Positions 13,898-50,131 of a stretch of 64,000 bases of DNA are shown here, piece after piece. The position numbers and the translations under genes are program-made. The notes under the pieces were generated by a model that made no database searches, had not been told where the DNA came from, and was given only the letters and a program-made list of their open reading frames with translations. Positions within the stretch are counted from its first letter, which is position 1, and the number at the start of each line of letters is the position of its first letter. Source of the DNA: Nitrospirota bacterium (GTDB taxonomy: Bacteria > Nitrospirota > Thermodesulfovibrionia > Thermodesulfovibrionales > JdFR-88); assembly GCA_014874185.1 (NCBI GenBank), contig JACWAF010000032.1, positions 1 through 64,000 on the forward strand, written 5' to 3'.

Positions 13898-14000
13898 ATT
13901 TGACAGACCGGAAGGAACTCTGCCCCTTCCGGTCTATTTCAGATGCCTTCGACAGGTGTATATCTACTTTTCTGTCGCCGCATCCACGGCTGTTTTTATG

Positions 14001-14534
14001 CTAGTTCCTGCCGTGGTCCGAGCCATGATTATGGCCCCCGTTGCTGTCATGGCGGTCATTGTCGTTATGGCCCCTGTTGCCGCTGTGGCGATCATTGTCG
14101 TTATGGCCCCTGTTGCCGCTGTGGCGGTCATTGTCGTTATGGCCCCCATTGCCGCTGTGGCGGTCGTTGCCGTTATGGCCCCCGTTGCCGCTGTGGCGGT
14201 CGTTGTCGTTATGGCCCCCGTTGCCGCTGTGGCGGTCATTGTCGTTATGGCCCCCATTGCTGTCGTGGCGGTCATTGCCGTTATGGCCCCCGTTGCCGCT
14301 GTGGCGGTCGTTGTCGTTATGGCCCCCGTTGCCGCTGTGGCGGTCATTGTCATTATGGCCCCCGTTGCGGTCGTGGCGGTCGTTGTCATTATGGCCGCGG
14401 TCACGGTCATTGCTGTAATGCTTGTCAGAATTCTTGTGATCGTGTCCGTTTATCCCCGCCTGCGCAATCCCGTTGACGCCGAAAAGCAGCACTGCCGTCG
14501 CGGCAATTGCCAGAATGTTATATATCCTTCTCAT
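14001..14534 (-). CDS. Secreted 12-residue tandem-repeat protein rich in Asn/Asp/His/Gly
   Basis: Signal peptide MRRIYNILAIAATAVLLFGVNGIAQAG followed by ~10-11 copies of GGHNDNDRHSGN encoded by a 36-bp tandem repeat. Confidence 0.75.
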   Translation of the reverse strand: MRRIYNILAIAATAVLLFGVNGIAQAGINGHDHKNSDKHYSNDRDRGHNDNDRHDRNGGHNDNDRHSGNGGHNDNDRHSGNGGHNGNDRHDSNGGHNDNDRHSGNGGHNDNDRHSGNGGHNGNDRHSGNGGHNDNDRHSGNRGHNDNDRHSGNRGHNDNDRHDSNGGHNHGSDHGRN

Positions 14535-34149: not shown

Positions 34150-34405
34150 ATGGTCTCAAAATAGAATTGACATTAGTCATGAAATCTCCCCTATCCCCTC
34201 TTTTCCAAAGAGGGGGACCAAAACAGAGGCGCTCCTTAGAGGGGGACCCAAAACAGAGGCGCTCCTTAGAGGGGGACCCAAAACAGAGGCGCTCCTTAGA
34301 GGGGGACCAAAACAGAGGCGCTCCTTCATGGGTTCCTCCCTTTGGCAAAGGGAGGTTAGGAGGGATTTTTCGAAAAATTATGTTCATACTATGAGACCAT
34401 TATTA
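34150..34405. repeat. Composite palindromic element containing a ~30-bp tandem repeat (4 units), flanked by GGTCTCA / TGAGACC ends
   Basis: AGAGGGGGACC(C)AAAACAGAGGCGCTCCTT x4 between CCCCTCTTTTCCAAAGAGG and CCTCCCTTTGGCAAAGGGAGG. Confidence 0.9.
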
Positions 34406-42732: not shown

Positions 42733-44244
42733 TCAAAACCCCCTCAGTGAGCTAAACGCCCTGTGGCCGGCGGATTCGTATTCGAAGAGGGCGGTGGGGG
42801 CCTTGCCTGCGTATATGCCAAGGGCGGCGGCCCAGAACCTGTCCGCGTGGCCGTCCCCGTCCCGTTCGGCCAGGAAGCGGGAGTGCCCGGCGTATGTGGC
42901 CTCGCGGCGTATGCGGTAAAAATCCTCGCGTATGGAATTGGAAATGGGAATTCGCACCCTGCGCTCTTCGAGTGCCCGCCTCATGTCGAGGGCGAGCCTT
43001 TCTTTGACGGGCAGGCTGAATGTGACCGCCTCCACCTGCGGGCCGAACTTTGCAGTCGTTTCTTCGGCAAGCTGCGCGCCAAGCCCGGTGGAGTCTATGG
43101 CCGTGCGGGTTATGCGGATGCCGAAAGAGCCGTCAAGAAGGGCGTATAGGAAATCGCGCTGGATGGAAAACGGCGTGTCCCGAAGCTCGCGCACCATGCG
43201 GGTCCGGAAGACGTCGCCTTCTTTTTGCCAAAGCCAGAAGACCGTGAGGTCATGCTTTCTTCCGATATCCACGCCCAGGTAGAAATCACGACAAATCCCC
43301 CCCTGCCCCCCTTTTCCAAAGGGGGGGACCAAAAACCCCGGCGCGTTTGAAAGTCCTGTTCCATCCGAATTTCTATCCGGGTTTGGATATTCCCCCTTGG
43401 CCCCGCTTAACTTAAGTGGGGAGACATCTGGTAACAATAAGGGGGAACGAAACGGGGCATTTCCATTAAATGAGGGATCTGCCATGCTCCCCCCCTTTTC
43501 TAAAGGGGGGTGAGGGGGAATTACCAAATCGCAGCTGGCCTCTTCGCTCTCGCATGAGGCGATGAGTTCGTAGCTGATGAATGCCCCGGCGCTGTCCAGA
43601 AAGACGCACTCGTACTCCTGCGCCCATGAATCAGGGTCGAAGATGCCTTTTTTGAGTTCGTCAATAGAGATGGGCAGGCCTTCGTTTACGGCGTCGTAAA
43701 TGGTGGTCTTGTGCTGACTGTAGCCGGACTGACTCCAGAGGGTATGGAAAAGGCTCCCTGCTTTTCCGTTGGGGGTCGAGGAGACGCGGAGCTTGTAGCC
43801 CCGTGTTACGGCGGGATACATCGCCCGCCATATCTCTCCTGCGTCCTTGTGGAAGGCGAACTCATCCAGGTACACGTTTCCGGAAAAGCCGCGGACCGTG
43901 TCCGGATTAGCCGGGAGGGAGATTATACGGGAGCCGTTTGGCAGGCGCACTTCTTCCCGTGTATCGTCGAACACAATGCGTTCTTCGCGGGAGGAGAAGT
44001 GCCTGAGGTGGGCGAGAACCTTTTCCATTACCTCTCTGGACTGCCTCTCGGAGGCAGATAGTATGAGGTTTGCCGAGCGGGCCTCGAGGCCTTCGGCAAC
44101 AGCCTCAAGCGCGATAGTGAAAGACTTCCCCGTCTGCCGCGCGGCAAGCCATATCTTGCGCGGGCCGCGGTCTGCAAGCCACCGCCTCTGATAGGGAAGC
44201 AGTATCGTCTTATCCATCAATGCCGACGCCATAGTCCGTTTCAA
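42733..44244 (-). CDS. Mu gp28-like terminase large subunit
   Basis: LAARQTGKSFTIALEAVAEGL (Walker A-like), VYLDEFAFHKDAGEIWRAM, nuclease LGVDIGRKHDLTVFW. Confidence 0.87.
   Translation of the reverse strand: MKRTMASALMDKTILLPYQRRWLADRGPRKIWLAARQTGKSFTIALEAVAEGLEARSANLILSASERQSREVMEKVLAHLRHFSSREERIVFDDTREEVRLPNGSRIISLPANPDTVRGFSGNVYLDEFAFHKDAGEIWRAMYPAVTRGYKLRVSSTPNGKAGSLFHTLWSQSGYSQHKTTIYDAVNEGLPISIDELKKGIFDPDSWAQEYECVFLDSAGAFISYELIASCESEEASCDLVIPPHPPLEKGGSMADPSFNGNAPFRSPLLLPDVSPLKLSGAKGEYPNPDRNSDGTGLSNAPGFLVPPFGKGGQGGICRDFYLGVDIGRKHDLTVFWLWQKEGDVFRTRMVRELRDTPFSIQRDFLYALLDGSFGIRITRTAIDSTGLGAQLAEETTAKFGPQVEAVTFSLPVKERLALDMRRALEERRVRIPISNSIREDFYRIRREATYAGHSRFLAERDGDGHADRFWAAALGIYAGKAPTALFEYESAGHRAFSSLRGF
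43286..43533. repeat. GC-rich palindromic modules inside the terminase ORF (three modules)
   Basis: CCCCCCTGCCCCCCTTTTCCAAAGGGGGGG; CCCCGCTTAACTTAAGTGGGG; CCCCCCCTTTTCTAAAGGGGGGTGAGGGGG; frame stays open. Confidence 0.85.
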
Positions 44245-44485
44245 GGATGTCCCTGGTTATCTCTTTCAGCTCGTCAGGGGTAAGCCTGCCCTTCGATTCG
44301 GCCTTCATCTTTCTTAGCAATTCGACGGCGGTCTTCACCATGCCCGTGTAGGCGCTCATGGCCTGGTTCTCGATCTTCTCCGGTTTGGACTCGAAGTATT
44401 TTTCATAGCGTTTCTTCTGATTGAGCAGGTCTTTTATCAACTCAAGCTCCAGGTCTTTTTCCTTTTTTTCCTTTGCCGGACTCAT
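44210..44485 (-). CDS. Putative terminase small subunit-like / helical phage protein
   Basis: 91 aa, lysine-rich helical, immediately upstream of the large terminase. Confidence 0.5.
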   Translation of the reverse strand: MSPAKEKKEKDLELELIKDLLNQKKRYEKYFESKPEKIENQAMSAYTGMVKTAVELLRKMKAESKGRLTPDELKEITRDILETDYGVGIDG

Positions 44486-45726: not shown

Positions 45727-46458
45727 CTACCCTGCCGGCCTTTTGCCAGCCTTGAGGTCCGCAAGACTGAGCCCGCCAGTGTACTCGAAGTGCCCGTAAT
45801 CCCTGAACCTGAACCTGCCGCCCCATCTGAGGCCAAGTGATTCGCCAATCTTTCCCAGCTCTTCGTAATCGGGGAGATGGTTGTCGTTCAGGTCAGCCTT
45901 CGTGTCCCAAACGATCTCTTCGCCACTTAACCCCGCTTGATCCCCCCTTGAATTACCCTCCACTGAGTCACCCCTTAAGATAACCCCCCCAGCCCCCCTT
46001 AAATTAAGGGGGGCTGGGGGGGTTATCAATGCCACGTCGAAGGCCAGCCCGAACTGGTGGATGGAGGTCAGGTTCCGGGTGACCACCCTGTTCTCCTTCC
46101 CGGCTATCGGGGCAAGCCCGGCCTCCGCCCTCAACCTGTTCACCTCTGCAAGGGGCTTTCTGCCCTGCGCAAAATACGCCAGCTGTTCCTTCTCCGTTCT
46201 CAATGTGCTTATGACCTTGAACTCCAGGCCCCTTTGGGCGGCAAGCTTTTCAAGCTCGCCGAGCTTCGCTCTAGCAAGGGGATTTAGCGCCTGTGGGTCT
46301 CTCAATCCGGTCACCTCCTTTTCAATTTCCCCGTTGAAGCAGCCAAAACAAATCTCGTCATCCGGGAGGGGGATGCAGCGGAGGCTCTTCTCCACCCGGC
46401 ATCTTGCCCTCTCTTTCAGTCTCCTTCTGCTCCAGCTAATGAACCCGGCGTTCATCAT
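45727..46458 (-). CDS. M15-family peptidase endolysin
   Basis: SIHQFGLAFDVALI ... WDTKADLNDNHLPDYEELGKIGESLGLRWGGRFRFRDYGHFEYTGGLS. Confidence 0.88.
   Translation of the reverse strand: MMNAGFISWSRRRLKERARCRVEKSLRCIPLPDDEICFGCFNGEIEKEVTGLRDPQALNPLARAKLGELEKLAAQRGLEFKVISTLRTEKEQLAYFAQGRKPLAEVNRLRAEAGLAPIAGKENRVVTRNLTSIHQFGLAFDVALITPPAPLNLRGAGGVILRGDSVEGNSRGDQAGLSGEEIVWDTKADLNDNHLPDYEELGKIGESLGLRWGGRFRFRDYGHFEYTGGLSLADLKAGKRPAG
45943..46028. repeat. GC-rich palindromic module inside the endolysin ORF
   Basis: CCCCCCCAGCCCCCCTTAAATTAAGGGGGGCTGGGGGGGTTAT perfect inverted repeat; frame stays open. Confidence 0.85.
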
Positions 46459-49450: not shown

Positions 49451-50131
49451 ATGAAGAAATTAGGCATAGGCGTCTTCTCCGTGCTGGTCACGCTGCTTCT
49501 GGTCCTGCCGGCGTTCGCCCAGATGGACGGGGACACGACAGGCGACAACGATATGGCTGTTCAGGGCGCAACTGATCCCGGTCCCTGCGGCTGCCAGTGC
49601 TGTGGCGGCATGATGGGCGGGGGGATGATGGGAGGAGGAATGATGCGGGGCGGCATGGGCAGAGGCATGATGGGCATGGGTATGATGAAGCACGGGATGA
49701 TGGGCGAAGGCATGTGGATGGAGCACGAATGGATGCATATCTGGCAGCTGGACCTCAGCGACACCCAGAAAACCCGGATAAGAGACGTAAAGATGAAGAC
49801 CGCCAAGGAAGTGATAAAAAAGTCGGCCGATCTGAAGATAGCCGGGCTGGAGCTTAAGGACCTTCTGGAGAAGGAGCCGGTGGACATGAAGGCCGTAGAG
49901 GCGAAGCTCCGCCAGATAGAGGGGCTTCGCACGGAGATAAAGCTTGCTCATATCCAGGCCCGCGAGCAGGTCAGGCAGATACTCACCCCGGAACAGATAA
50001 AGAAGCTTAAACAGTCCCTTGAGGAATGCCGCATGGGAATGGCCTGCGGGCAGGGCTGCCGGATGATGCAGGGGGGCGGCATGATGAACGCACCCTATGG
50101 CGGCCCGCCGCGCATGCGGCCGGGTATGTAG
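49451..50131 (+). CDS. Spy/CpxP-like periplasmic protein, Met/His/Cys-rich
   Basis: Signal peptide MKKLGIGVFSVLVTLLLVLPAFAQ; CGCQCCGGMMGGGMMGGGMMRGGMGRGMM; LTPEQIKKLKQ helical region. Confidence 0.8.
   Translation: MKKLGIGVFSVLVTLLLVLPAFAQMDGDTTGDNDMAVQGATDPGPCGCQCCGGMMGGGMMGGGMMRGGMGRGMMGMGMMKHGMMGEGMWMEHEWMHIWQLDLSDTQKTRIRDVKMKTAKEVIKKSADLKIAGLELKDLLEKEPVDMKAVEAKLRQIEGLRTEIKLAHIQAREQVRQILTPEQIKKLKQSLEECRMGMACGQGCRMMQGGGMMNAPYGGPPRMRPGM

Follow-up and report, generated by a model that had tools for sequence, protein, structure and literature searches.

The window (the whole stretch of DNA analysed, 64,000 nt) contains a phage cassette in which comparison with PHROG placed an endolysin gene together with genes for the terminase large subunit (TerL), portal, head maturation protease and major head protein (Table 1). 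The endolysin ORF matched PF13539 (Peptidase_M15_4, E=1e-10) in the Pfam search and phrog_2649 and phrog_465, both endolysin, in the PHROG search; with the structural model of the protein as a query, the top Foldseek match was the Ply500 endolysin domain 2vo9. The M15 catalytic motifs SxHxxGxAxD ... HxE are kept, and alignment of 20 M15 sequences showed that H134, D141, D220, H223 and their neighbours are invariant. The codon usage of the gene is also kept. Residues 1 to ~50 (window 46300-46458, MMNAGFISWSRRRLKERARCRVEKSLRC...CFGCFNG) are homologous to a small ORF that in relatives stands on its own directly before M15; in the present gene both parts are joined in a single frame, and translation may actually begin at a TTG or GTG near LRDPQALNPLA.

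Table 1. Features of the endolysin locus and in-frame copies of the palindromic element
Feature	Position in window	Strand	Basis
M15 (VanY/Ply500-like) endolysin gene with insert	45730..46458	-	Pfam, PHROG, Foldseek, 86 homologs
Inserted coding segment, residues ~146-178 (TPPAPLNLRGAGGVILRGDSVEGNSRGDQAGLS)	45925..46023	-	absent from homologs; disordered in AlphaFold2 model
Perfect 49-nt palindrome GATAACCCCCCCAGCCCCCCTTAAATTAAGGGGGGCTGGGGGGGTTATC, TTAA-type	45979..46027	.	matches other genomic copies
Degraded right half-copy of element (AATTCAAGGGGGGATCAAGCGGGGTTAA)	45929..45954	-	local alignment to element half, P=0.0005 vs shuffles
Possible second degraded half-copy (TTAAGGGGTGACTCAGTGGAGGGTAA), uncertain	45953..45978	-	P=0.07 vs shuffles
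TerL, compound in-frame insert in ATPase-nuclease linker	42736..44256	-	homolog comparison, PHROG
In-frame copies, this genome: M15, HypF, SAM hydroxide adenosyltransferase (SAM-HAT)			
In-frame copies, NifE: G187, G201			
In-frame copy, MutL: G035			
In-frame copies, TPR membrane proteins: G079, G196 (twice), G062			
In-frame copy, P-type ATPase: G168			
In-frame copies, CbiC and CbiA (twice): G221			
In-frame copy, short ORF without identity: G187 (weakest case)			

A sequence-only reading of this DNA had proposed that about 30 extra residues lie between SIHQFGLAFDVALI and EEIVWDTKADLND, motifs said to be normally close together in M15 lysins, and that they are encoded by a strong palindrome. 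Both the extra residues and the usual closeness of the motifs were borne out by comparison with 86 homologs found in Nitrospirota, in Bacteroidota and on viral contigs, a set without any same-genus genome in which some loci overlap, the distinct genes being fewer. The AFD-to-WGG spacing is 73 residues here and 32-43 in these homologs. The net insert amounts to 30-32 residues and is in frame, and every homolog has a gap in its place in the alignment. In the search of 297 relatives, homolog matches ended at residue ~146 and restarted at ~183, with few nucleotides between. The reading had named the same loop in close homologs as the observation that would speak against it; the alignment revealed it in none of the 86, and a normal loop of the M15 family was rejected on this ground. 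In the AlphaFold2 model (20 sequences) the M15 core is intact with pLDDT >90, and the insert (pLDDT ~50) forms a disordered coil or turn joining strands 139-146 and 181-183. Comparison with PDB sequences was too weak for placing the insert, which was positioned with this model; the disordered turn suggests a location at the protein surface, off the active site.

The palindrome itself consists of two arms of 24 nt (45979-46002 and 46004-46027), 100% complementary and separated by 1 nt. As RNA the insert is predicted to form a hairpin of -64.5 kcal/mol (z=-7.2). The proposal that the palindrome encodes the insert was correct in part: it is strong, indeed perfect over 49 nt, but it codes for only ~16 of the inserted residues (TPPAPLNLRGAGGVI), about half of the total. 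The rest (LRGDSVEGNSRGDQAGLSG) comes from the adjacent degraded half-copy and, more doubtfully, from a second one, both without any stop codon. Similarly, the range first given, 45943-46028, contains the palindrome, but the insert runs on to ~45925. Matches to the palindrome were found at C4:50021, C24:26883, C30:127475 and C30:127935, and the right half-copy matches C30:127482-127509. A chance palindrome was rejected, as 2.4 Mb of sequence should not yield a perfect one of 49 nt at random. Mis-assembly was considered as well, given the accumulation of hairpins at contig ends, but the reading frame of the gene runs on to both sides of the insert, with homology on each.

The element consensus, derived from C30:127475 and C4:50021, is TAACCCCCCTTCATCCCCCCTTAAATTAAGGGGGGATGAAGGGGGGTTA. 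It is a nested inverted repeat in which outer C/G runs, a spacer and inner C/G runs surround a TTAA core. The exact core CCCCCTTRAWTYAAGGGGG occurs in six copies, plus degraded ones, at unlinked sites of this genome, in agreement with the earlier assignment of the palindrome to a dispersed family. The genome is a Nitrospirota MAG whose close relatives are Nitrospirae/Thermodesulfovibrionales MAGs; among 297 Nitrospirota genomes, 41 exact copies were found in 21, with ~0 for a reversed control pattern and none in 11 family mates. A relaxed pattern (<=5 mismatches) also picked up numerous hairpins of the TTT type; they belong to a sister family and were treated separately from the TTAA type. This sister type makes up most of the ~197 loosely defined C/T-rich hairpins in the genome. 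Within 700 nt of contig ends there are 19 hairpins where 3.2 would be expected (the window lies in C27), and the assembly therefore probably gives too low a copy number. When IMG/VR was scanned for the core, seven contigs matched, none with a palindrome clearly within a conserved gene; on this evidence the family does not seem to be carried by phages. Other repeats were noted in the window: a 30-nt unit (GGGGGACCAAAACAGAGGCGCTCCTTAGA) repeated four times in tandem and adjoining C/G hairpins at 34212-34341, a long 18/36-nt tandem repeat array with several frames open at 13957-14460, and a Met/Gly-rich repeat coding region (GMMGGG-type, 15-nt spacing) at 49592-49714.

The sequence-only reading had further suggested that the element is compatible with translation in at least one frame. 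The TTAAATTAA core has exactly one open frame on each strand, the other two of the three containing stops, and this frame encodes the Pro/Gly-rich NPPLSPLNLRGDRGG. Each in-frame copy must consequently read ...PL(N/K)LRG..., and the common frame of the copies, being forced by stop codons, is not independent evidence. All 41 exact copies were inspected individually and ~15 of them are in frame inside genes (Table 1). A single Pfam match spans the insert in M15, HypF, SAM-HAT (SAM_HAT_N), NifE, MutL and the ATPase, and in CbiC two matched stretches flank it. CbiA of this genome contains a degraded copy, likewise spanned by one CbiA/GATase_3 match. The remaining copies are intergenic or ambiguous near gene ends (N-terminal in FeoB of G193, L282 and L292; C-terminal in L181). 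No broken gene was found among the 41 exact copies, with Pfam applied to the flanking ORFs at five loci: two different, complete genes flank the copy at L184, L190 and L191, one side was scanned at L291, and one neighbour at L185 has no Pfam match.

In several genes other than the endolysin gene the net gain was smaller than the element: +2 aa in MutL (against a 96%-identical neighbour), +7 in NifE, ~+9 in HypF and ~0 in SAM-HAT (against solved homologs in the PDB). This means that residues of the native loops were lost too and that a model of simple insertion is incomplete; insertion may come with deletion, or later deletions may have restored the frames. A target-site duplication was sought in the MutL comparison and none was resolved.

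The NifE loop between DYVIGTG and INLIGEYN is short and uninserted in G184, and is filled in six other genomes of the same genus and in G187 of another family. Each of these seven genomes has an in-frame insert of its own (L312-L317, L193, L196); most of the inserts are palindromic, and at least three element types are represented among them. The phage cassette of the window, in which the earlier reading counted the endolysin as an independent second in-frame case, also has the compound insert of TerL, where residues ~245-323 are without homology to relatives and hairpins near 43306, 43401 and 43490 comprise two of the TTT type and one degraded TTAA. The length of the TerL linker varies among relatives, and that of G001 includes what appears to be another dispersed repeat (SRLRHAGMTN). 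The same reading had held that coincidence was made less likely by the second case; recurrence of the pattern in many conserved genes of other Nitrospirota strengthens this point.

Six DUF559 loci, some of them partial, are present in this genome. By inspection five of the six are bracketed by hairpins; a strict automatic test gave three bracketed on both sides, where the random expectation is 6e-5, and one on one side. Neither of the two Y1_Tnp genes of this genome is bracketed (nearest hairpins ~24.6 kb and 0.33 kb away). The stop codon of a DUF559 gene is provided, in both G097 and G225, by the core of a TTAA palindrome within which the gene ends. The counts cover one genome and these two loci, and the link is one of association. 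DUF559 proteins belong to a family with an established Vsr-like PD-(D/E)XK nuclease fold. In the literature searched, which included few subscription journals, no paper ties DUF559 to such palindromes. Near a contig end of this genome (G000, C31:15929-17133, L058) a DUF559 gene is surrounded by a cluster of nine hairpins, and part of this array has a tandem spacing of ~66 nt.

Taken together, the insertion in the endolysin gene is real, in frame and part of a recurrent phenomenon. Very probably a short mobile palindromic element with a 49-nt TTAA-type unit was inserted in this gene, its sequence now being translated within the protein. A copy landing in an open frame, with a net length of 3n and in a surface loop, would add a flexible Pro/Gly-rich peptide that can be tolerated, and copies breaking essential genes would be lost. 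Lying at a turn between two M15 strands, the endolysin insert leaves the catalytic core intact, and the product may be an active enzyme. In-frame insertion is well supported; as to mobilisation, DUF559 proteins may move copies in trans, their genes lying between such palindromes. The bare palindromes might then be non-autonomous, MITE-like terminal remnants of a DUF559 element. It is plausible, if somewhat short of probable, that DUF559 proteins and nested C/G palindromes form a new minimal mobile element, with an autonomous unit (palindrome - gene - palindrome, stop codon inside the palindrome), bare palindromes as its non-autonomous offspring, and in-frame loop inserts across Nitrospirota.

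The insertion could instead have inactivated the lysin of a decaying prophage remnant, the frame being intact by chance or recency. The cassette looks partial, TerL also has a large insert, and the endolysin is fused to a small upstream ORF that is separate in relatives. Yet the codon usage and catalytic residues of the gene are kept, the older half-copies are degraded but stop-free, TerL and M15 occur together in most family mates, which suggests a maintained cassette, and the same element resides in housekeeping and metabolic genes (MutL, HypF, NifE); we regard decay as rather unlikely. Another idea is that the palindrome is kept in the mRNA and bypassed by ribosomes, giving a mature protein without the insert. 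The hairpin is very stable, as calculated above, and bypassed coding palindromes do exist, such as the untranslated palindromic byps of Magnusiomyces mitochondria (cited in PMC6649704). Bypassing, however, needs neither a length of 3n nor an open frame, and yet all in-gene copies found are open and in frame, which makes it very improbable here.

Two other explanations concern the origin of the copies. Hairpin-templated duplication in situ or slippage in C/G runs, with no mobility involved, would agree with the slippage-prone nature of C/G-rich hairpins, with the adjacent half-copies, which suggest local duplication, and with net gains that are in some cases far below the element size. It is highly doubtful nevertheless, since the same 21-nt core with two-sided outer arms is found at unlinked genomic sites and in distant genomes, which local slippage cannot give. 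Alternatively, these could be REP-like repeats moved not by DUF559 proteins but by Y1 (RAYT-type) transposases. REP and RAYT are a classic pairing, this genome has two Y1_Tnp genes, and the Y1_Tnp family is common in relatives; the hairpins, however, bracket DUF559 genes and neither of the Y1_Tnp genes, and we consider such mobilisation unlikely.

To our knowledge, in-frame coding palindromes have so far been known mainly from Rickettsia and Wolbachia, the Rickettsia palindromic elements (RPE) reportedly going back to Ogata 2000. The element described here is unrelated to theirs and comes from another phylum; it shows the same habit, its insertions lying in phage genes and in genes of nitrogenase, repair, cofactors and transport. 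Repeated growth of protein loops by selfish DNA becomes directly testable, with the NifE loop as a hotspot. The literature compared names no mobiliser for in-frame coding palindromes, and the DUF559 association provides a candidate enzyme for moving them.

Several known systems share features with the mobile palindromic element proposed here. Those bacterial MITEs that contain open frames (ERIC/RU-1, Correia 107-bp; PMC2229807, PMC2759123) are similarly small non-autonomous repeats capable of in-frame gene fusion. The terminal repeats of MITEs are flanked by TA/TSD, and a cognate IS transposase usually goes with them; for the present element no TSD or IS parent came to light, and its palindromes are shared with DUF559 loci. 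REP/REPIN sequences with RAYT (PMC3733652, PMC3116915) are also short dispersed palindromes presumed to be mobilised in trans, but REPs are extragenic, while in our case copies are also found in genes and none of the two Y1 transposase genes is bracketed. Perfect inverted repeats within protein-coding genes are known from Nematomorpha mitochondria (PMC6649704); these are <=284 bp long, mitochondrial, described as distinct from the Rickettsia elements, and do not make up a family of short, dispersed copies like the present one.

The closest parallel is with RPE and the Wolbachia palindromic elements, which are dispersed palindromes located in intergenic stretches and also, in frame, inside conserved genes (PMC2229807, PMC10969869, PMC3767692). 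RPE are 105-146 bp long, and guanylate kinase is still active with the one that it carries (PMC2229807); a 2024 review finds similar events in other prokaryotes conceivable (PMC10969869). The Nitrospirota family likewise is dispersed in and between genes, with in-frame inserts in genes that are conserved insert-free elsewhere; a conserved peptide is encoded, insertions probably lie in solvent-exposed regions, judging from the M15 model, and the same gene sites are struck in several species, as in RPE. In contrast to RPE, the unit is a 49-nt core and not ~100-150 nt (PMC2229807, PMC3767692), its hosts are Nitrospirota and not Rickettsiales, and it is a nested, C/G-rich repeat built on a TTAA core, for which no relation to RPE in sequence is recognised; the association with DUF559 has no counterpart mentioned in the RPE literature consulted. 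The Nitrospirota element works like RPE and is not RPE by sequence, length or host.
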